From NCBI RefSeq assembly GCF_001641085.1, contig NZ_LXIE01000036.1:1-41279 (forward strand): a stretch of DNA of 41,279 bases. The letters are read 5' to 3'. Below are positions 16,034 through 39,550 of the stretch, piece after piece. How positions within the stretch are numbered: position 1 is the stretch's first letter; each line of letters begins with the position of its first letter. The stretch comes from Aequorivita soesokkakensis. GTDB lineage: Bacteria > Bacteroidota > Bacteroidia > Flavobacteriales > Flavobacteriaceae. Below the pieces are notes generated by a model that saw only the letters and a list, made by a program, of their open reading frames with translations, had not been told where the DNA came from and did not search any database. The translations under genes and the position numbers were made by a program.

Positions 16034-16465
16034 TTACATTCTAATTTCCATCTCAATGGTTTCATTCCCAACCTCAAATTTTGCATCGCTCCACTGTGGA
16101 GGGCCGAAACTCATTATATTATTGGAAATTCCGTAAGGCTCCAGCGGCATTCCATTTACATCAAAATCCATTTGTTTGTTGCCATTTTTATCCTGAAACA
16201 ATGAAATGCCATAAGTTCCGGGGACTACATTTTCGAAAGTTGCAATGGCTTTTCCATCAACAATTTCGGCAATTGCTCTTTTCATTGGAGCGGCTTTTAA
16301 AAATATGTCTTCCGTATAAAGACCAACCAGCACGTTGCCTTCGTCACTAGTTACCGGAACCGTTACGGTTATGGTTGTTCCTTCGGAAGTTGAGGCCGTG
16401 TCGTTTTGGGCATTTACAAAATGTGTGAAAAATGTGATACCAATTAATGCGATGATTGTTTTCAT
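16034..16465 (-). CDS. DUF2141 secreted protein
   Basis: The 143-residue exported protein has a signal peptide ending VNAQ. The mature part is a beta-sandwich with the DUF2141 pattern: NVLVGLYTEDIFLKAAP, then FENVVPGTYGISLFQDKNGN, MDFDVNGMPLEPYGISN and SFGPPQWSDAKFEV. The family is widespread in Bacteroidota and other Gram-negatives, and its function is unknown. The ATG at 16465 is chosen because it begins the signal peptide. A TTG at 16501 would add twelve polar residues. It has its own terminator and sits upstream of oxyR on the same strand without being joined to it. Confidence 0.88.
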   Translation of the reverse strand: MKTIIALIGITFFTHFVNAQNDTASTSEGTTITVTVPVTSDEGNVLVGLYTEDIFLKAAPMKRAIAEIVDGKAIATFENVVPGTYGISLFQDKNGNKQMDFDVNGMPLEPYGISNNIMSFGPPQWSDAKFEVGNETIEMEIRM

Positions 16466-16568
16466 AAGAATACGTTTTAGTGTGTTTGAATTATGAATCA
16501 AATGTCCAAAAACTTCGCTTTTGAAAGAAAAAGCAATATCCCAACTGTCGAAATTTTATGCTGAAATG

Positions 16569-17903
16569 TTATAAAAGCCCTCTAGCCTTTATTTCCAAAT
16601 ACTTATTAATGGTGTTCACGGTGAGATTTTCCGGCGCGGTAAGTATGGATTGAATGCCGTATTTGTGAAGTTCGTTAACTATCAGTTTCTTTTCATAAAT
16701 GAATTTTTCGGCAATCGTCTTCTCAAAAACTTGATGGGTCGTGCTAGCTTTTTTATTCATAAAAGATTTCAACTCCGTATTTTCAAAAAAGATAACCACC
16801 AAAAGATGTGTCTTATTGATTGCCTGTAAATAGGGCAACTGACGATGCAAGGCATCCATAGTTTCAAAATTTGTGAATAGCAAAAGCAGGCTTCGTTGCT
16901 TGATGTGTCGCTTCACATCAACATACAAACGCGAAAAATCACTTTCCGAAAAGTCGGTTTCCACATTGTAAAGTGTTTCCAAAATTAAGTGCATTTGTGC
17001 ACTTCGCCTTTGCGCAATTACACGATCATCCACTTTTCTGGAAAAAGTGAACATTCCCGCTTTGTCGTGTTTTTTGAGGACTATGTTTGAAATAACAAGC
17101 GTAGCATTAATCGCATAATCCAGCAAACTCAATTGGTTGAAAGGCATTTTCATCACCCTTCCCTTATCAATCACGGCATAAACTGGCTGCGATTTTTCGT
17201 CCTGAAATTGGTTCACCATCAAGCTGCTTCGTTTCGCCGTGGCTTTCCAATTTATGTTCCGCACATCGTCGCCCGATGTGTAATCTTTTATTTGCTCAAA
17301 CTCCATTGTATGGCCGATTCTTCGGATTTTTTTAAGTCCGAAAAGCTTCAATCTATTGGTAAAAGCGAGGAAATCATATTTTTTAAGCTGAAGAAACGAA
17401 GGATAATTTGGCACCATCGCTTCCGCGGAAAACTGTTGTTTCCGGGCAATCAATCCCAAAATAGTTGATGAAAAAATATTCAGATTTCCGAAGTGATATT
17501 CCCCGCGCTCCGTTGGCCGGACTTGATATGTAAATTTCTTTTCATCGGAAGCATTCAAAATAGCTTCAATCTTAAAATCACGAATCTGCCATTGAATGGG
17601 CAATTCGTCGATAATCTTCACGGAAGTTTTAAACTGAAACCTATTTACAACCTTAATTTCAATGGAATTATCATCACCGTTGGAAAGTTTTTCGGGCAGT
17701 ATTCGCTGTGCCTGAATTCCAGTTTTATTTCGATATAATAAGAAAACATCAAAAACAAAAACTCCCAAAAGCAAATAAAACAAAAGCTTTGCCACGCCAA
17801 ACAGTTCCTGAAAGAAGTACGAAACCACAAACAGAATCGCAAGCGAGAACATCACGATGAAAAATCGCTTTTTTAAGTATAGGCTTTTAAGGAATTTCTT
17901 CAA
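16569..17903 (-). CDS. DUF58 domain membrane protein
   Basis: The 444-residue protein begins with two membrane spans (about 13-57), then a beta-rich region. The DUF58 signature follows near 215-240 with DYTSGDDVRNINWKATAKRSSLMV. A von Willebrand factor A-like fold fills the C-terminal half, including the segment with VIDKGRVM where the metal-site motif would lie. A canonical DxSxS MIDAS motif is not seen. DUF58 proteins are constant partners of MoxR ATPases, and the moxR gene precedes this one by 85 bp. It is the last gene of the six-gene operon. Confidence 0.88.
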   Translation of the reverse strand: MKKFLKSLYLKKRFFIVMFSLAILFVVSYFFQELFGVAKLLFYLLLGVFVFDVFLLYRNKTGIQAQRILPEKLSNGDDNSIEIKVVNRFQFKTSVKIIDELPIQWQIRDFKIEAILNASDEKKFTYQVRPTERGEYHFGNLNIFSSTILGLIARKQQFSAEAMVPNYPSFLQLKKYDFLAFTNRLKLFGLKKIRRIGHTMEFEQIKDYTSGDDVRNINWKATAKRSSLMVNQFQDEKSQPVYAVIDKGRVMKMPFNQLSLLDYAINATLVISNIVLKKHDKAGMFTFSRKVDDRVIAQRRSAQMHLILETLYNVETDFSESDFSRLYVDVKRHIKQRSLLLLFTNFETMDALHRQLPYLQAINKTHLLVVIFFENTELKSFMNKKASTTHQVFEKTIAEKFIYEKKLIVNELHKYGIQSILTAPENLTVNTINKYLEIKARGLL

Positions 17904-30549: not shown

Positions 30550-30714
30550 TTTGCTTTGTTTTCTTCCGAAGATACAATTTTTCGAAATAAATTTATTTTA
30601 GTGAATGTCCTAAAATTACAATTGAGTAATCCATTTTTACAATTCGGTTTGTTTTATTCTGAAAAAATGTACCGAAATTTCACCTTTGACCTGAAATTAA
30701 AAACCAACCAATCC

Positions 30715-32868
30715 ATGAAAATTTTTACAATTACTTTTTTAGCAATCCTTTTACCCTTTCATTTTTTTGGTCAAAACACGGTTTCGGGAACAGTTAAAGA
30801 TAATAACGGTACCCCAATATTTGGCGCCAATGTATATCTTGAAGGAACTTATGACGGAAGCACTTCCGATGATAACGGAATGTTTTCTTTTGAAACTTCT
30901 GAAACGGGCACCCAAACACTAACCATTTCATACGTTTCTTTTGAACCCTTCAAGCTTACAGATGATGTTTCAAAAATGAAAAACTTAAAAATCGAACTTC
31001 GCGAAGATGTAAATTCTTTAGAAACTGTTACAATTTCCGCAGGCTCCTTTTCTGCGGGAGACAACAGTAAAATTTCGGTTTTGAAACCTTTGGATATTGT
31101 AACAACAGCAAGCGCTTTGGGCGATTTTGTTGGCGCTTTGCAAACACTTCCCGGAACAACAACTGTCGCGGAAGACGGCCGTCTTTTTGTTCGGGGCGGT
31201 GATGCGGGCGAAACGCAGATTTTTATTGATGGCATCCGCGTTTTTACACCTTACAGCCCAACAACCAATAATGTTCCCACGCGCGGGCGTTACAGTCCGT
31301 TTCTTTTTGACGGTATTACTTTTTCCACAGGCGGTTATTCCGCAGAATATGGGCAGGCACTTTCCTCGGTTTTGCTTTTGAATACTATTGACGAGCCCAC
31401 ACAGGAAAAGACGGATATTGGCATTATGAGTGTGGGCGGTGCGTTGGGACACACCGAAAAATGGGAAAAAAGTTCATTGAGCTTGAATGCATCCTATATA
31501 AATTTGGCGCCATACATAGCGATTCTTCCCGATAGAAATGATTGGCAAAAACCTTTTGAAACAGCTTCGGGCGAAGCCGTTTTCCGTCAGAAAATAGGGG
31601 ATGGGCTGCTGAAAATTTACGGTGCTTTTGACACTTCCGATTTTGAACTTACGCAGGAAGACATCAACCAACCCGAAGGAACACGTTTTAAATTAAACAA
31701 CAAAAACTTTTATACAAATGCGAGTTTTAGTGAAACCCTTGATAATGATTGGACCCTATTTGCCGGAGGAAGTTATACTTACGGAAATACAAAAGTTGGC
31801 ATTGATGAGGCCGATATAAAAGATGTGGAAAATTCGGCACATTTTAAAATGAAGCTGAACAAACGCTTCAGCAACCGCTTTAAACTGAATTTTGGCGCGG
31901 AACAGTTTGTAACCGATTTCAACGAAAATTATAACGAACCAAATTTTGCCGCAAAGCTTGGCTTCAACAATAATATTTCAGCGGCATTTACGGAAGCCGA
32001 TATTATTTTCTCTCGAAAACTTGCTTTAAAATTGGGCGTTCGCGGAGAATACAGTGAATTGTTTCAAGAGTTTACAATTTCACCGAGAGCTTCTTTTGCT
32101 TATAAAACTGGAAAAAGTAGTCAACTATCATTGGCTTATGGAGATTTTTTCCAACAGCCAGAAAACGAGATTTTGAAATTCACCGATAAAGTTGAAGCGC
32201 AACACACGCAACATTATATTATGAATTATCAATATTCGGCCAATAACCGTATTTTTCGAGCGGAAGTTTTCAGAAAACAATACAGTAATCTGGTAAGTTA
32301 TAATGACGAATTTCCTGATGTAAACACCTCCTTTTCCAACAATGGAAACGGTTACGCGCAAGGTTTGGATCTATTTTGGCGCGATAACGAAACCTTGAAA
32401 AATATAGATTACTGGGTAAGTTATTCCTATTTGGATACGGAGCGCAAATACCGAAATTATCCAATAGAAGCCACTCCTTCCTTTGCGAACACACACAATC
32501 TTTCATTGGTTGCAAAATATTGGATCAACGATTGGAAAAGTCAGATTGGGTTTAGTTATCAATTTGCCAGTGGCAGGCCTTATACAGATTTGAACAAGCC
32601 TGGTTTTCTTCAGGAAAAAACAAAAAGCTACAATAGTTTAAGTTTGAATTGGGCATATTTAATTTCGCAACAGAAAATCCTTTATGTATCCGTAAATAAT
32701 GCACTTGCCACAAAAAATATAAATGGTTATCAATATGCAAATACGCCTGATGCCAACGGAAATTTTGCGCGAAGAGCTTTGCGCCCGGCGGCTGATCAGT
32801 TCTTTTTTGTTGGCTTTTTCTGGACGATTAGCGATGATGGAAAGGACAATCAGTTGGATAATCTTTAA
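30715..32868 (+). CDS. TonB-dependent outer-membrane receptor with carboxypeptidase-regulatory-like domain
   Basis: The 717-residue protein has a signal peptide ending near residue 20 (FFGQ), a carboxypeptidase regulatory-like beta domain at about 22-100 (VSGTVKDNNGTPIFGANVYLEG), a plug domain at about 122-225 (LFVRGGDAGETQIFIDGIRV), and a short beta barrel ending in an aromatic-rich tail. No SusD partner lies beside it, so it belongs to the smaller non-Sus type. The substrate cannot be read from the sequence. The ATG at 30715 starts the signal peptide. An upstream extension to 30463 would overlap the divergent YdeI gene. A TPR protein gene follows after 108 bp. Confidence 0.9.
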   Translation: MKIFTITFLAILLPFHFFGQNTVSGTVKDNNGTPIFGANVYLEGTYDGSTSDDNGMFSFETSETGTQTLTISYVSFEPFKLTDDVSKMKNLKIELREDVNSLETVTISAGSFSAGDNSKISVLKPLDIVTTASALGDFVGALQTLPGTTTVAEDGRLFVRGGDAGETQIFIDGIRVFTPYSPTTNNVPTRGRYSPFLFDGITFSTGGYSAEYGQALSSVLLLNTIDEPTQEKTDIGIMSVGGALGHTEKWEKSSLSLNASYINLAPYIAILPDRNDWQKPFETASGEAVFRQKIGDGLLKIYGAFDTSDFELTQEDINQPEGTRFKLNNKNFYTNASFSETLDNDWTLFAGGSYTYGNTKVGIDEADIKDVENSAHFKMKLNKRFSNRFKLNFGAEQFVTDFNENYNEPNFAAKLGFNNNISAAFTEADIIFSRKLALKLGVRGEYSELFQEFTISPRASFAYKTGKSSQLSLAYGDFFQQPENEILKFTDKVEAQHTQHYIMNYQYSANNRIFRAEVFRKQYSNLVSYNDEFPDVNTSFSNNGNGYAQGLDLFWRDNETLKNIDYWVSYSYLDTERKYRNYPIEATPSFANTHNLSLVAKYWINDWKSQIGFSYQFASGRPYTDLNKPGFLQEKTKSYNSLSLNWAYLISQQKILYVSVNNALATKNINGYQYANTPDANGNFARRALRPAADQFFFVGFFWTISDDGKDNQLDNL

Positions 32869-32976
32869 GATTACATTTCAGCAGTAAAATTCAACAGTTC
32901 AGTTTTTTCAATTTTAATAGGAAAACATTTTATAGGAAATTTGAATATCAATTAATACTAACTAAAAATAGAAGTC

Positions 32977-33636
32977 ATGCAAAATGTAGTCACTTATTTA
33001 ATAATTTTTTTCACAGCCATCGTGATGCAGGCCCAAACTGAAAACACGGTAAATGCAGATGCCGCACCTACAAAATACCAACAAGGCATGCGCAAAGCAT
33101 TCCAATTGTGGCAGGAAGATAAATCCTGGGATGCCGCAAATGTGTTTGAGCGCATCGCTTCAGCAGAACCGGACAATTGGCTTCCGCTTTATTACGTGGC
33201 CCAAATTAACGTAATCAATAGTTTTACGGAAAAAGACGCAACCAAGTTGAAGGCGCAATTGGATAAAGCACAGGATTTTTTAAACCAAGCAACCACCCTT
33301 TCAAAAGACAACCCAGATTTATTGGTTTTGCAGGCGCAATTATATACGGCCTGGATTGTTTTTGACGGCCAACAATATGGAATGACCTATTCCGCGAAAG
33401 CTTCTGAACTTTACAACAAAGCGTTGGCATTAGCGCCCAACAATCCGCGGATTATTTTGGCCAAAGCCGAATGGGATATGGGTGGCGCCAAATATTTTGG
33501 ACAGTCCGTGGAGCCTTATTGCAAAGACATTCAACGCGCCATAGATCTTTTCGCTACCTTTAAACCAGCGGGTGAATTTTACCCAACCTACGGCGAAGAA
33601 CGGGCAAAGCAGATACAGGCGGAAAGCTGTAAATAA
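32977..33636 (+). CDS. Exported TPR protein
   Basis: The 219-residue protein has a signal peptide (about 1-19, ending MQAQ), then helical repeats of the tetratricopeptide type: KYQQGMRKAFQLWQEDKSW, AANVFERIASAEPDNWLPLYY and ASELYNKALALAPNNPRIIL. It is periplasmic. It sits between the TonB receptor and the histidine kinase, whose start is only 16 bp after its stop, so it probably shares a transcript with the kinase. A role in sensing or in receptor assembly is possible, but nothing in the sequence decides. Confidence 0.8.
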   Translation: MQNVVTYLIIFFTAIVMQAQTENTVNADAAPTKYQQGMRKAFQLWQEDKSWDAANVFERIASAEPDNWLPLYYVAQINVINSFTEKDATKLKAQLDKAQDFLNQATTLSKDNPDLLVLQAQLYTAWIVFDGQQYGMTYSAKASELYNKALALAPNNPRIILAKAEWDMGGAKYFGQSVEPYCKDIQRAIDLFATFKPAGEFYPTYGEERAKQIQAESCK

Positions 33637-33652
33637 AATATAAATTTTAGGA

Positions 33653-34984
33653 ATGAAGTTTTTTTTAAAAGAATTCGGCAAGGCTTTTTTTATAGGTTTT
33701 CTCATCTATTTGGTTTTGATGGCCATCACCTATATTTCAGTCGGCAGTTTGGGAACGCCGCGCGAAATTCTTGTGAATTTTGGTTATAATCAGCTTTATT
33801 CCGTAGTACTTTATTTGGTGAACGTGCCGTTGTTTCGGTATTTCATTAAAACCCATAAAGGTGAATTTTTCAAATTAAAAAATCTGCTAAAAAGCTTCTT
33901 TGGGGCCATTCTTTCAACTTTAGTAGGGCTTTTTGTGCTTCAGGTTTTTTTAAATGTAATCATTGAAGGAGAGGATTTTTTAAAGTTCCTTTCCGAACAG
34001 AAAATTGATTATTACTACGTTGCCTTTATAATTGCAATGGTGGTAAGTATTATTTTTTACATTGCCTACTATTACAAGTTCAAACAGGAAAATAAGGTAA
34101 CCGAGCAGAAGATAATCGCGGGCACGGCATCGGCAAAGTTTGATGCGTTAAAAAACCAACTGGATCCACATTTTCTCTTCAACAGTTTGAATGTTTTGAC
34201 CAGTTTGATTGAAGAAAACCCCGAAGCCGCAACGCGTTTCACTACTTCGCTTTCAAAGGTGTATCGGTATGTTTTGGAACAGAAAAGCAAGGAGCTGGTT
34301 ACGTTGGAGGAAGAATTGAAATTTGCGGAACTCTATATGTCACTTTTGGCCGTTCGTTTTGAGGACAGTATCGTTTTTACAACACCTTCAAAATTGGAAA
34401 ACCCACAAGCAAAGGTGGTTCCTTTATCGCTTCAGCTTTTGTTGGAAAACGCAGTGAAGCACAATCAGGTTATGCCTTCCAAGAAACTTCACATAACTAT
34501 TTCCGAGGAAAACGGCAATTTGGTTGTGGCCAACAACAGTCAGCCAAAGCAGGTTTTAAAGGAAAGCACGGGTGTTGGCTTGCGAAATATCCGCGACCGA
34601 TATGCGCTTTTAACGAAACGTCCGGTACTTATTAACGAAACCCAAAAAGAGTTCCGAATTGCAATTCCCGTTTTGGGAGAAAACATTCAAATTATGAATA
34701 CAACGGATACATTTATTTCAGAAAAAAGATACAAACTCGCCAAGAAACGGGTGGAAAAATTAAAGGTGTTTTATATACATTTTGCTATTTATTGTATTTG
34801 TGTGCCCGTATTTATTTACCTTAATTTTCTTTCGCGAGCGGGATTTCCGTGGGCACTGTTCCCCATTGTGGGCTGGGGCATTGGCGTTACGAGCCACGCT
34901 TCGGAAACATTTAATTACAATCCTTTCTTCGGAAAAAACTGGGAGGAACGTAAAATTAGGGAATTGATGGATAAAGAGGATTAA
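33653..34984 (+). CDS. LytS-type sensor histidine kinase with C-terminal 2TM domain
   Basis: The 443-residue kinase has about four N-terminal membrane spans (10-30, 45-62, 82-103, 120-141). The His_kinase motif follows as LDPHFLFNSLNVLTSL with the phospho-acceptor H173. The ATP-binding domain shows N266 in LLLENAVKHN and the G box GVGLRNIRDRY near 307-317. A 2TM domain is fused at 355-443, with AKKRVEKLKVFYIHF, two spans and NWEERKIRELMD. This fused domain matches the three stand-alone proteins encoded just downstream. The cognate LytTR regulator is at 36081. The kinase core is intact. Confidence 0.92.
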   Translation: MKFFLKEFGKAFFIGFLIYLVLMAITYISVGSLGTPREILVNFGYNQLYSVVLYLVNVPLFRYFIKTHKGEFFKLKNLLKSFFGAILSTLVGLFVLQVFLNVIIEGEDFLKFLSEQKIDYYYVAFIIAMVVSIIFYIAYYYKFKQENKVTEQKIIAGTASAKFDALKNQLDPHFLFNSLNVLTSLIEENPEAATRFTTSLSKVYRYVLEQKSKELVTLEEELKFAELYMSLLAVRFEDSIVFTTPSKLENPQAKVVPLSLQLLLENAVKHNQVMPSKKLHITISEENGNLVVANNSQPKQVLKESTGVGLRNIRDRYALLTKRPVLINETQKEFRIAIPVLGENIQIMNTTDTFISEKRYKLAKKRVEKLKVFYIHFAIYCICVPVFIYLNFLSRAGFPWALFPIVGWGIGVTSHASETFNYNPFFGKNWEERKIRELMDKED

Positions 34985-35082
34985 CAGTTCATCCCTCAAA
35001 AATTACGGTTCGGAAGTTTCAATTTTATATTCGGGTCTTCCTTCTGTAATTTTATGCTATAATTTAAAAAACAATTTTAATT

Positions 35083-35391
35083 ATGGAACCTAACGAGAAA
35101 GACAGCAAGTATTTTAAAGCGAAAAGACGTGTTGCCGAAATAAAGAAATTCTACAGCAGCTTAATGTTTTATATCATTTTTATAAGCATGCTTGCCGGTA
35201 TAAACTATTACACCAACCAATGGAGATCACCTTGGTTTTTATGGGCAGCTTTCGGGTGGGGTATAGGAATTTTTTTTCAAGCCATCAAAACCTTCCAATG
35301 GATGCCTTTTGTTGGCAAGGATTGGGAAGATAGAAAAATGAAGCAATTTATGGAAGAAGAGGAAAAACACAACCAAAACCGTTGGGAATAA
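35083..35391 (+). CDS. 2TM domain protein (first of three)
   Basis: The 102-residue protein consists only of a 2TM domain: a basic amphipathic helix (FKAKRRVAEIKKFYSSL), two membrane spans (about 28-45 and 52-68), then the family's terminal motif DWEDRKMKQFME. It is homologous to the C-terminal domain of the kinase encoded 98 bp upstream. Its stop overlaps the start of the next 2TM gene as TAATG, so translation is coupled. It is probably an inner-membrane partner of the kinase, or a modulator that competes with its own 2TM domain (inference). Confidence 0.85.
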   Translation: MEPNEKDSKYFKAKRRVAEIKKFYSSLMFYIIFISMLAGINYYTNQWRSPWFLWAAFGWGIGIFFQAIKTFQWMPFVGKDWEDRKMKQFMEEEEKHNQNRWE

Positions 35392-35708
35392 TGGAATTTT
35401 CAGAAAGCACAAAATTGAGAAAGGCCCGAAAGAGGCTGGAAGCGCTAAAAGGATTTTACAAACACTTGTTAGTTTATATTGTTGTGAACATCGCTATTTT
35501 TATAGTGAGAGGGAATGTTTTGGAGTTTTTTCAAAACCAGTCCCCCGATAAAAATTTCATAGAATGGGTAAATTGGAATACTTTGATAGTCCCTATTTTT
35601 TGGGGAATAGGTTTACTGTTTCACGCTTCAAAAGTATTTCAATATAATTTTCCCTTCATTAAAAATTGGGAAGATAGGCAGATAAAAAGATTTATGGACG
35701 AAGATTAA
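35391..35708 (+). CDS. 2TM domain protein (second of three)
   Basis: The 105-residue protein has the same layout as its neighbours: LRKARKRLEALKGFYKHLLVY, two spans with a longer loop between them (residues about 45-60), and the end motif NWEDRQIKRFMD. The ATG shares one base with the stop of the preceding gene, and a TTG nine bases earlier is not needed. The next 2TM gene starts 12 bp after its stop. The loop between the spans is longer and more charged than in the first copy, so the copies are not interchangeable. Confidence 0.85.
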   Translation: MEFSESTKLRKARKRLEALKGFYKHLLVYIVVNIAIFIVRGNVLEFFQNQSPDKNFIEWVNWNTLIVPIFWGIGLLFHASKVFQYNFPFIKNWEDRQIKRFMDED

Positions 35709-35720
35709 AAGAATCAAAAA

Positions 35721-36026
35721 ATGGAAACGAAGAGAAGCCTGACTTATTTAAGAGCAAAGAAAAAAGTGGAAACATTAAAAGGTTTTTACAGCCATTTGGC
35801 AGTATTTGTTATAATCAATACAGGAATTATAGTAATAAATGCAAATGTTTTCGGAAAGGGGCCGACCAATTTTGAAGATTGGGGCAATTATTTCACCTTA
35901 TTCTTCTGGGGCATCGGATTGGTCTCGCACGCTATTTATGCGTTCTTTGTACTGAAGGTGCGAAACAATTTTTTAAAACGCTGGGAAGAGAAGAAAATCA
36001 ACCAATTTTTGGATGAAGAAATTTAA
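35721..36026 (+). CDS. 2TM domain protein (third of three)
   Basis: The 101-residue protein is another single 2TM domain: LRAKKKVETLKGFYSHLAVF, two spans with a loop containing GPTNFEDWGNYF, and the end motif RWEEKKINQFLD. The end motif is the most divergent of the four in the cluster. It precedes the response regulator gene, from which it is separated by a short tract of ATCGAA repeats. Order and spacing indicate one transcript from the kinase to the regulator. Confidence 0.85.
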   Translation: METKRSLTYLRAKKKVETLKGFYSHLAVFVIINTGIIVINANVFGKGPTNFEDWGNYFTLFFWGIGLVSHAIYAFFVLKVRNNFLKRWEEKKINQFLDEEI

Positions 36027-36076
36027 AAATCGAAATCGAAATCGAAATTAAAATCGAAATTGAAACCTGAAACCAA
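36026..36076 (+). repeat. ATCGAA-type tandem repeats before the response regulator gene
   Basis: The gap holds about five near-copies of a 6-7 bp unit (ATCGAA, ATCGAA, ATCGAAATTAAA, ATCGAA) followed by ATTGAAACCTGAAACC. It ends just before the ATG at 36081. It could alter spacing between the cistrons by slippage. Confidence 0.65.
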
Positions 36077-36080
36077 CCAA

Positions 36081-36836
36081 ATGAACGTATTAATCATTGA
36101 AGACGAAAAACCATCTGCCCGCTATCTGCAACGGATGTTGGAAAAACAGGATGTTGTTGTAAACCAAATGCTCCACAGTGTGGAAGAAGCAGTGAATTGG
36201 TTTCAAAACAATCCGCATCCAGATTTGATCTTTTTGGATATTCAATTGAGCGACGGACTTTCTTTTGAGATTTTTGATGCTGTTGAAGTGAATAGCGCTA
36301 TTATTTTCACCACCGCTTTTGACGAATACGCATTGCAGGCTTTTAAATTGAACAGTATCGATTATTTATTGAAACCAATTGATGAAGATGAATTGCATAC
36401 CGCTGTAAAAAAATATAAGTCCTTAAAACCTGCGGTCCAAAATGTACAGTTCAATTTTGAGGATATTAAAAAACTGCTCGTAAATCCCGTGGAACGCGAT
36501 TACAAAAAGCGGTTTACTACCAAAATAGGGCAGCATATAAAAATGATTTCCGTTGATGAAATTGAATGTTTTTATTCTGAAAACAAAGGCACATACGCAC
36601 ACACGGTAGATGGCCGCGATTATCTGTTGGAAACCACTTTGGAACAGTTGGAACAGGAACTTTCACCCGAAACTTTTTTTAGGATAAGCAGAAAATATTA
36701 TGTAAATATTAATTCAATAAAAGATATAATTTCCTACACAAATTCGCGTCTTCAGTTAAAGCTCAACAGTTATAAAGAACAGGAAGTGATAGTTGCCCGT
36801 GAGCGGGTAAAGGATTTTAAATTGTGGATTGAATAG
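36081..36836 (+). CDS. LytTR-family response regulator
   Basis: The 251-residue regulator has an N-terminal receiver domain (1-120) with acidic residues E7, D8 and E9, phospho-acceptor D53 in LIFLDIQLSDG, and the switch residues TTAFDEYALQAF and YLLKPI. A LytTR DNA-binding domain fills about 145-250, with IECFYSENKGTYAHTVDGRDY and RKYYVNINSI. It is the evident partner of the LytS-type kinase at 33653. The ATG at 36081 gives the standard receiver start. A TTG at 36060 lies in the repeat tract and is rejected. The LETM1-like gene converges 3 bp after its stop. Confidence 0.94.
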   Translation: MNVLIIEDEKPSARYLQRMLEKQDVVVNQMLHSVEEAVNWFQNNPHPDLIFLDIQLSDGLSFEIFDAVEVNSAIIFTTAFDEYALQAFKLNSIDYLLKPIDEDELHTAVKKYKSLKPAVQNVQFNFEDIKKLLVNPVERDYKKRFTTKIGQHIKMISVDEIECFYSENKGTYAHTVDGRDYLLETTLEQLEQELSPETFFRISRKYYVNINSIKDIISYTNSRLQLKLNSYKEQEVIVARERVKDFKLWIE

Positions 36837-38209: not shown

Positions 38210-38896
38210 ATGAAAAAATCAAAATTTTTTGCAGTAATCGGTGGAATAGGCGTAGCCGCACTATCGATATTTTTAATATCCGCGGATCACATTGACGCGC
38301 CAGCTGTAGCCGGCACAACCGCAGATATTACAGACTTTTACGCCTTTCAGGGCGAGAACAATGGCAATTTTGTTTTTGCCGCTAATGTACAAGGGTTATT
38401 GGCACCCGGACAACCCACAAGTCAAGCTGTGTTTGATGAAACCGTATTGGTAGAAATAAACATTGATAATAACAATGACTTAAAGGAAGACTTGGTGATA
38501 CAAGCCATTAAACGTGGGGATTCTATGTATTTCTTTGGTCCTTCTGCGCCAGCTATGCAAGGTTTGGAGAGTACTATCGCAACTTCAGCCAGAAGAAGCG
38601 TGAAAATTTCTACTAAAGATGACGTTCAAATTACTGAAAAAGACGGAATGAAGTTTTTTGCAGGCCCGCGGGAAGATCCTTTCTTCTTTGATTTTAATCA
38701 ATACAATGCAATACTTGCAGGAACAGCTGGTGGTTTTAATAACCCAGGAGCAGACACTTTTGCAGGAACAAACGTATTGAGTATTGTAATTGAAGTTCCA
38801 AAATCTATGATTCCCGGTGGAGTTGCTGGTGTAAATCCATTTGCTCCAAACACACCTATATACAATGTGTGGGTTGAAGCCAAAAGAAAAATATAA
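38210..38896 (+). CDS. DUF4331 protein, N-terminal half type
   Basis: The 228-residue protein has a signal-like hydrophobic N-terminus (about 5-25) directly followed by ADHIDAPAVAGTTADITDFYAF, the opening hallmark of DUF4331. FFAGPREDPFFFDFNQYN and NVLSIVIEVPKSMIPG also match the first half of that domain. The protein ends after YNVWVEAKRKI, about where full-length DUF4331 proteins continue. The second half of the domain appears in the next gene, which begins 27 bp later with its own lipoprotein signal. Both are exported, so they may assemble into one unit outside the cytoplasm. Confidence 0.85.
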   Translation: MKKSKFFAVIGGIGVAALSIFLISADHIDAPAVAGTTADITDFYAFQGENNGNFVFAANVQGLLAPGQPTSQAVFDETVLVEINIDNNNDLKEDLVIQAIKRGDSMYFFGPSAPAMQGLESTIATSARRSVKISTKDDVQITEKDGMKFFAGPREDPFFFDFNQYNAILAGTAGGFNNPGADTFAGTNVLSIVIEVPKSMIPGGVAGVNPFAPNTPIYNVWVEAKRKI

Positions 38897-38923
38897 TTGC
38901 TAACCTTGAAAAAATTTAAAAAG

Positions 38924-39550
38924 ATGAAAACATTAAAATATATAACCCTTTTTGCTGCAATTTCAACATCATTATTGTTTGTGCAGTGTAAAGATGACGA
39001 CGATAACGTAATAATACAAGAAACTTGTACAGACGGAATTATGAACGGTGATGAAACTGGAGTGGATTGCGGTGGAACTTCTTGTGCACCTTGCGGACAA
39101 GTACTTGATTTTAGCGGAACTTACAGACAGGAAGATCAAATGGGTCGTCCAGGTATAAATACCGTTTTTGGAACTACTGGCTTTAAAGATTCTTTTAATG
39201 CTACAGTTCCCTCAGCAATGCAAGCTGCATTTCAAACTAAGTTTCAAGATAAGTTACTTGCTCTAAATGCAGGTTATACAACTAATGCACTTGGTCTTGA
39301 CGCTGCAACTTTCACTACTGTACTTTCTAATGATGTATTGTGGTTGGGTAAAACAGGTATCACTACTTATTTTAACGGCACAGAGATTTTGACAGGTAGA
39401 GCCTTGAGTGATGATGTGATAGACGTATCATTGCTATTAATCTTTGGCGGACCTGACGGAACTGAAAACCCAGGTTTGACAAGTGATGGTGTGCCGTCAA
39501 ACGATGTTGCTTTTTCAAGCAGCTTCCCGTATTTGGCTGGCCCGTTTTAA
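38924..39550 (+). CDS. DUF4331 lipoprotein, C-terminal half type
   Basis: The 208-residue protein has a lipoprotein signal ending FVQC. A cysteine-rich stretch follows, CTDGIMNGDETGVDCGG and CAPC, a short motif seen in Bacteroidota surface proteins. The rest resembles the second half of DUF4331: QMGRPGINTVF, FKDSFNATVPS, RALSDDVIDVSLLLIFGG, and the ending DVAFSSSFPYLAGPF. The ATG at 38924 is chosen because it opens the signal sequence. The gap from the first DUF4331 gene is 27 bp, so co-transcription is expected. A terminator follows at 39571. Confidence 0.83.
   Translation: MKTLKYITLFAAISTSLLFVQCKDDDDNVIIQETCTDGIMNGDETGVDCGGTSCAPCGQVLDFSGTYRQEDQMGRPGINTVFGTTGFKDSFNATVPSAMQAAFQTKFQDKLLALNAGYTTNALGLDAATFTTVLSNDVLWLGKTGITTYFNGTEILTGRALSDDVIDVSLLLIFGGPDGTENPGLTSDGVPSNDVAFSSSFPYLAGPF

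Follow-up and report, generated by a model that had tools for sequence, protein, structure and literature searches.

The data presented here suggest that a run of genes in a 41,279-nucleotide stretch of DNA from Aequorivita soesokkakensis (the window; assembly GCF_001641085.1, contig NZ_LXIE01000036.1, positions 1 to 41,279 of the forward strand) encodes a two-component system in which several small membrane proteins are conserved parts of the circuit. The genes at 33653..36836 encode, in order, a LytS-type histidine kinase whose C terminus is a 2TM domain (PF13239), then three free 2TM proteins (T1, T2 and T3) and finally a LytTR response regulator. The small predicted regulon of this system includes the circuit itself. 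An autoregulated LytS/LytTR circuit whose accessory membrane subunits are induced by its own regulator is a plausible, if tentative, reading of these data. We infer that the kinase is the target of the free 2TM proteins and that feedback inhibition is their most likely role, both the contact and its sign being predictions.

This order of kinase with 2TM tail, three free 2TM proteins and LytTR regulator, given in a preliminary description of the DNA, was confirmed by matches to PF06580, PF13239, REC and LytTR profiles (Table 1). The kinase has four N-terminal helices of membrane-spanning length, a DHp/ATPase core and a C-terminal 2TM domain (residues 362-440), and profile matching found one 2TM domain and nothing else in each of T1, T2 and T3. 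All four 2TM domains scored 74.9-97.2 bits against a curated cut-off of 24.8. They all have the FY motif, two spans and terminal WE(E/D)(R/K) motif that had been described for them, and across 274 aligned 2TM domains, taken from 81 arrays, conservation was 98% for F, 97% for Y, 99% for W and 98% for E. In the kinase, H173, N266, N271, G309 and L310 were invariant in 71 aligned sequences; H173 is presumably the phospho-acceptor histidine and the other four residues presumably belong to the ATP-binding N and G boxes. By its domains and these kinase residues the gene set is a LytS/LytTR two-component system, with phosphotransfer as a prediction. The best NCBIfam matches of the regulator were BtsR and LytR, both below their cut-offs, and two further relatives of the regulator (about 30% identity) are encoded in the same genome. 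Its start is probably the ATG at 36081 rather than the TTG at 36060, because the REC domain begins at the former. Coupled starts had been proposed for the free 2TM genes, but only T1 and T2 are joined in this way (TAATG at 35389-35393). Elsewhere there are gaps of 98 bp between kinase and T1, which holds a predicted operator, 12 bp between T2 and T3 and 54 bp between T3 and the regulator. Short repeats of the AAATCG type lie between T3 and the regulator (36028-36063).

The distribution of the arrangement was determined in an even sample of 80 Flavobacteriaceae genomes from 79 genera, A. soesokkakensis included, with one or more free 2TM genes after a kinase-2TM gene counted as an array. A 2TM match was found in 74 of the 80 genomes and an array in 67 (regions read in 60 of these genomes, in G018, in five more and in the window). 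That the free 2TM proteins are part of the kinase system, as had been proposed, is upheld by their position in a row after the kinase in all 67 array-bearing genomes. In 63 of the 67 arrays a LytTR regulator gene was found downstream, in the same orientation and inside the fetched region, mostly immediately adjacent. In the other four genomes and in genome G001 the regulator is not beside the array; an orthologue 61-92% identical is encoded elsewhere in all five, which rules out loss of the regulator in them. It is also not beside the array at loci L163 (a contig end) and L247. At locus L096 the only free 2TM gene directly adjoins an integrase gene of phage type, which runs on the opposite strand; the regulator orthologue of that genome is located elsewhere. 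The fused array was also found in one further family of the order (genomes G039 and G052; loci L160 and L161). Arrays contain 1-7 free copies: among 80 loci, 23 had one copy, 22 two, 25 three and seven four, with one locus each for five, six and seven. A second set of 80 loci, partly overlapping the first and fetched with the A. soesokkakensis kinase, so skewed to close relatives, had 7, 28, 22, 11, 7 and 5 loci with one to six copies, respectively. The unit reaches upstream of the kinase to a TPR gene and a TonB-receptor gene (Table 1), and in the two sets of 80, 58 and 53 loci have a TPR homologue just 5' of the kinase.

Thirteen sampled genomes lacked the array, six without a 2TM match and seven with one. 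In those seven and in genome G031, which are the eight array-less Flavobacteriaceae with a 2TM domain, the single 2TM domain was fused to or directly before dihydrofolate reductase (DHFR) in 8/8 cases. All 15 out-of-array family loci read (13 genomes) belong to this second 2TM lineage, being fused to, directly before or overlapping the DHFR gene, and apparently represent a membrane-attached DHFR. The preliminary description had taken 2TM genes that stand without the kinase in most genomes as an observation that would speak against a joint system. No array-type 2TM gene without a kinase was found among the Flavobacteriaceae genomes read, a survey that did not cover out-of-array copies in most array-bearing genomes. 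Outside the families that have the system such genes do occur. In a phylum sample 26 of 118 genomes had a 2TM match, and at 12 of 13 loci outside the order (12 genomes) neither kinase nor regulator was found within about 5 kb of the 2TM gene, the exception being genome G174. Neither was found beside 2TM at 11 more loci, read about 1.5 kb to each side, from an order sample of 59 genomes of which 11 had 2TM.

The exception revealed a second form of the system. In the family of G174, 8 of 41 genomes had a 2TM match, and the order at all six readable loci was 2TM, kinase and LytTR regulator, with the 2TM gene free and in front. No 2TM domain was found on the kinase at these six loci. Because they combine an unfused kinase with a free 2TM protein, the two lineages differ, on gene content, in whether the 2TM domain is free or fused, within otherwise similar operons. 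Upstream was a TPR gene in four and a TonB-receptor gene in two, and a predicted operator stood before the first detected gene in five of the six operons, L306 being the one without it. Two matches of the family fell outside the six: one locus ends just past the 2TM gene, and the other match was below the cut-off, with no 2TM reading frame found. The opposite case is the kinase at locus L127, in one Flavobacteriaceae genome, which ends in two tandem 2TM domains. The tandem kinase and the second family with its free 2TM protein also bear out the proposed link between the free proteins and the kinase.

Within the arrays, 2TM types go with position, as judged from a midpoint-rooted tree of the 274 domains. 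All 81 fused domains fell into a clade of 154 domains (support 0.89), together with 47 of 60 first, 3 of 60 last and 1 of 21 single copies, and the nearest relative of 78 of the 81 fused domains was another fused domain. Proline occupied one position of the first span in 81/81 fused domains, and asparagine the neighbouring position in 49 of 60 last and 20 of 21 single copies. Two polar positions, one per span, covary, with H/H in 138, N/H in 60 and S/Q in 36 of the 274 domains; single copies had H/H in 21/21. In Aequorivita, H/H was found in the fused copy (26/26) and the last copy (25/25), and S/Q in 23 of 26 first free copies. Shared descent alone could be sufficient for this coupling. The idea that the histidine pair binds metal or haem comes from the covariation, which shared descent could equally explain.

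Selection was examined at the kinase loci that had been fetched for 26 of the 28 Aequorivita genomes. T1 was present in 26/26, T3 in 25/26 (the one locus without it stops at the end of a contig) and T2 in 17/26, three of these truncated. The median ratio of nonsynonymous to synonymous substitution rates (dN/dS) was 0.087 for T1, 0.139 for T2 and 0.127 for T3 (69, 75 and 100 pairs, limited to those unsaturated at silent sites), 0.084 for the fused 2TM domain and 0.037 for the kinase core. By this measure purifying selection acts on all three free copies in the genus, which argues that the array is not a product of chance. An origin of the extra copies as neutral duplicates would fit the range in copy number and the absence or truncation of T2 at 12 of 26 genus loci. 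However, the median dN/dS of 0.09-0.14 per copy and the near-constant presence of T1 and T3 make this highly improbable, and for T1 and T3 neutral duplication is largely ruled out by the dN/dS values.

A predicted operator precedes several genes of the circuit, the free 2TM genes among them. Eight Aequorivita loci, window included, have a pair of 9-bp direct repeats resembling ACARTTSRG 5' of the TonB-receptor gene, with 12 bp between the two. LytTR operators have been described as a pair of 9-bp repeats directly 5' of the promoter, in most cases with 12 bp between them and most commonly 10 bp ahead of the -35 box (PMC6193735, in the accessible part of that paper), and the array repeats are of this form. 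The pattern derived from the eight loci was then tested on others. A period-21 pattern was found in 34 of 38 upstream regions (the eight included), at a score that no more than 2 of 100 shuffles attained; among the 38, L095 was weak (6 of 100 shuffles) and the pattern was absent by the shuffle test upstream at L117, L146 and L153. Removal of five near-duplicates from 161 arrays left 156 for scoring. A strong period-21 pair was present before 86% of TonB-receptor genes (n=50) and 59% of TPR genes (n=108), compared with 10% of kinase genes (n=155) and 1% of regulator genes (n=148). Before the first free 2TM gene it was present in 88% of arrays with a kinase-2TM gap of at least 50 bp (n=69) and in 1% of those with a shorter gap (n=87); before later free copies the values were 13% for long gaps (n=15) and 0% for short gaps (n=243). 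Other periods gave 0-14% in the same test. About 61 of the 156 arrays have free 2TM genes with a predicted operator of their own, and in these arrays the genes are probably induced by the regulator of the circuit. The operators, one of which probably gives the free 2TM genes a drive apart from that of the kinase, had been overlooked in the preliminary description.

Alignment of 206 operators, 180 of which reach to +35/+40, showed a T-rich segment at +10 to +13 (75-98% T). The 180 had A at +35 and TTT at +38-40 (99% each) followed by G in 86% or A in 14%, although neither these bases nor the T-rich segment had served as selection criteria. The flavobacterial -7 box is TAnnTTTG, as given in the accessible part of PMC9723704, and by its composition the +35/+40 signal is this box, with a -33-like element and a fixed spacing to the operator. 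The predicted placement relative to the promoter suits an activator.

The operator was also used to predict a regulon. In the A. soesokkakensis genome the operator alone, with up to two mismatches, gave 16 matches versus three for the reversed pattern. Ten of the 16 were fetched: three stand before the TonB-receptor, TPR and DUF2141 genes, six are inside reading frames and one (L297) is in an intergenic repetitive stretch. The T1 site was among the six not fetched and was read in the window instead. When the -7 box was added and at most one mismatch allowed, four matches remained, all in the window (30618, 32873, 34984 and, on the minus strand, 16569), and 14 genus genomes including this one gave 47 matches versus none for the reversed pattern. 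In the other 13 genomes the matches were not assigned singly, and a few remote from the array look like chance. A match directly after the kinase was found in 13 of the 14 genomes; its -7 box ends in TTTA and not TTTG, which may make a weaker promoter. In other genera the operator alone, with at most one mismatch, gave 29 sites in 13 array-bearing genomes, at least one in each (reversed pattern 8), whereas 13 genomes without an array had two sites in all (reversed pattern 7). Judged from their coordinates, 17 of the 29 sites are inside the array region; of the 12 elsewhere, four precede DUF2141 genes, two TonB-receptor genes and two DUF2807 'head GIN' genes, three precede nothing convincing and one was not examined.

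DUF2141 genes at array loci had the operator in 36 of 43 cases (other periods 0-9 of 43), and a DUF2141 gene was on the same strand in the fetched region of 41 of 156 arrays, mostly just 5' of the kinase. The DUF2141 gene of the window is 14 kb from the TonB-receptor gene and has the same operator; in some other genera it is inside the operon. The DUF2807 genes with this operator were found in two genera (L316 and L318), hinting at a link to envelope stress. As predicted, the regulon of TonB receptor, DUF2141 and TPR proteins, with DUF2807 in two genera, points to a role related to the envelope. That the array regulator binds these operators is what its family, their position and their co-occurrence with arrays would suggest.

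The AlphaFold2 model of the kinase, built with 71 of 81 kinases, had a mean predicted local distance difference test score (pLDDT) of 82 and a predicted template modelling score of 0.43. It has N-terminal helices at 2-30, 36-67, 75-104 and 119-167 and, at the C-terminal end, two more at 350-394 and 402-419 together with a tail helix, and in the model the ATPase domain appears attached to membrane helices at both sides. The best PDB match was the kinase domain of GanS (6swk), a kinase-core fold, and the 50 best-listed matches were kinase cores or kinases throughout. T3 was modelled as a helical hairpin (mean pLDDT 83.5). At locus L148, residues 75-157 of the kinase, in the N-terminal transmembrane (TM) region, gave a weak 2TM profile match (E 7e-5), and given this match the sensor part of the kinase may be derived from 2TM hairpins.

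In the proposed mechanism, a signal at the inner membrane would activate the kinase, whose ATPase domain would be anchored to the membrane through the N-terminal TM domain at one end and the C-terminal 2TM hairpin at the other. The phosphorylated regulator would bind the 9+12+9 operators as an activator beside the -33 box. Newly made free 2TM proteins would join the kinase through 2TM-2TM contacts and alter the freedom of the ATPase domain; the most likely effect would be reduced kinase activity, which would make the output self-limiting, with its gain set by copy number and 2TM subtype. This feedback reading is suggested by the likely induction of the free proteins by the output of the circuit, by their likeness to part of the kinase, by their location and by the tandem fusion. 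In its full form, the regulator of a self-titrating kinase induces free paralogues of a kinase domain, which enter the membrane assembly of the kinase and set its gain, and sensitivity evolves through the number and subtype of 2TM genes; this is possible, though on balance doubtful.

Several observations weigh against the feedback reading. The kinase-2TM gap is shorter than 50 bp in 87 of the 156 arrays, which bar one have no separate operator, and therefore separate induction of the free 2TM genes is not universal. Coevolution was tested on 146 of the 156 arrays (effective number of sequences 65), with pairings permuted within coarse clusters of at most 50 arrays, which controls kinship only partly. 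In this weak test the kinase 2TM domain and the last free copy gave a z of only 0.9, reached by 11 of 60 permutations. Among the nine pairs tested, the DHp-REC positive control gave 5.3, the N-terminal TM region and the kinase 2TM domain 3.7, the kinase 2TM domain and the first free copy 3.3, DHp and the last copy 2.7, the N-terminal TM region and the last copy 2.6, REC and the last copy 1.5, ATPase and REC 1.5, and ATPase and the last copy 0.7. These values are too weak and mixed, and they were not used as support for 2TM-2TM contact, such as the oligomerisation of free subunits with the kinase suggested in the preliminary description. In addition, the 2TM-DHFR fusions show 2TM serving a quite different protein, perhaps as a plain anchor, and the TonB receptor and DUF2141 genes under the same operator look like outputs, as the 2TM proteins could be too.

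The last two points would follow if the free 2TM proteins were regulon outputs, small membrane proteins acting on the envelope whose likeness to the kinase tail stems from an old duplication of a membrane anchor. However, outputs of this kind would not be expected to stay beside the kinase across genera with types that go with position, nor does this account sit well with the tandem-2TM kinase or with the 2TM-kinase association of the second family in another gene order, and it is considered unlikely. A positive or sensing role, in which the kinase depends on the hairpin for a signalling-competent complex and the response is amplified by induction, would fit the second family, where the sole 2TM protein is free and just before the kinase at all six readable loci, as an obligatory subunit would be, and also the last-type copy kept at every complete genus locus. 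By itself this view leaves the multiplication of copies and the S/Q subtype, which lacks the common polar pair, unexplained, and it is rated on the unlikely side.

The features of the window are collected in Table 1 with the DHFR-linked loci. Downstream of the regulator, two adjoining in-frame open reading frames (38210-38896 and 38897-39550) each match DUF4331, and this gene (38210-39550) seems to be interrupted by a stop codon.

Table 1. Genes and predicted operators of the array and its surroundings (window coordinates unless a locus is named)
Feature	Position	Strand	Details
TonB-dependent receptor, first gene of the operon	30715..32868	+	PF13715, PF07715
Small TPR protein, probably exported	32977..33636	+	PF13428; ends 16 bp before the kinase
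Histidine kinase, LytS type	33653..34984	+	443 aa; PF06580 at residues 161-239 (6e-25), PF13239 at residues 362-440 (E 6e-28)
T1, first free 2TM protein	35083..35391	+	PF13239 2.8e-26; polar pair S/Q, not H/H
T2, second free 2TM protein	35391..35708	+	PF13239 1e-22; start overlaps T1 stop
T3, third free 2TM protein	35721..36026	+	PF13239 5.4e-21; 'last' type, H/H pair
Response regulator, REC and LytTR DNA-binding domain	36081..36836	+	PF00072, PF04397; six other genomes have orthologues at 61-92% identity
DUF2141 exported protein, predicted regulon member	16034..16465	-	PF09912
Predicted LytTR operator, TonB-receptor gene	30618..30647	+	ACAATTGAG-N12-ACAATTCGG; -7 box 30682-30688
Predicted LytTR operator, TPR-kinase genes	32873..32902	+	pattern match
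Predicted LytTR operator, free 2TM genes	34984..35013	+	between kinase and T1; 69 bp 5' of the T1 ATG
Predicted LytTR operator, DUF2141 gene	16540..16569	-	pattern match
DHFR-linked 2TM loci	G000:C31 (L170: 6369-6806, 5887-6372)	-	further loci: L171-L174, L187, L188, L347-L354

In the open-access literature no description was found of a function for PF13239, of the kinase/free-2TM/LytTR arrangement as a regulated circuit or of such gain control in two-component systems. In their accessible parts, five papers that came up were unrelated to the array: PMC11237479 mentions 2TM and LytTR in other contexts, the '2TM domain' of PMC9425974 is DUF4191, in PMC10197871 the locus numbers of a LytTR gene and a kinase gene are consecutive, so that apparently no 2TM genes lie between them, PMC10057207 mentions a LytTR gene and no 2TM, and PMC4227749 was likewise unrelated. 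The domain and the parts are already known; new here is the dedicated predicted regulon. The PF13239 domain gains a proposed function in a widespread bacterial family, and a small regulon is predicted down to operator and promoter. Should free copies of a kinase domain, made under the control of that kinase, indeed hold its activity down, gain control would be achieved by a simple design.

As a member of PF13239 each of the four window domains lies above the curated cut-off, but the multi-copy and apparently regulated role in the array sets them apart within that family. LytS/LytR and BtsS/BtsR, which we take to be LytS/LytTR two-component pairs, share with the array the PF06580 kinase, the REC-LytTR regulator and the 9-bp direct-repeat operator. 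They differ in that the array has a C-terminal 2TM domain on the kinase, free 2TM paralogues before the regulator and a predicted operator for these genes. The LytTR Regulatory Systems HdrRM and BrsRM resemble the array in their autoregulated LytTR operon, pair of 9-bp repeats and membrane protein within the operon, and are defined, in the part of PMC6193735 that was accessible, as a LytTR regulator with a membrane inhibitor outside recognised signalling paradigms. The array falls outside this definition, since a kinase and a receiver domain are present. Unlike in those systems (PMC6193735), its membrane proteins are similar to a domain of the kinase, and the kinase rather than the regulator would be their target, with inhibition as the proposed effect.

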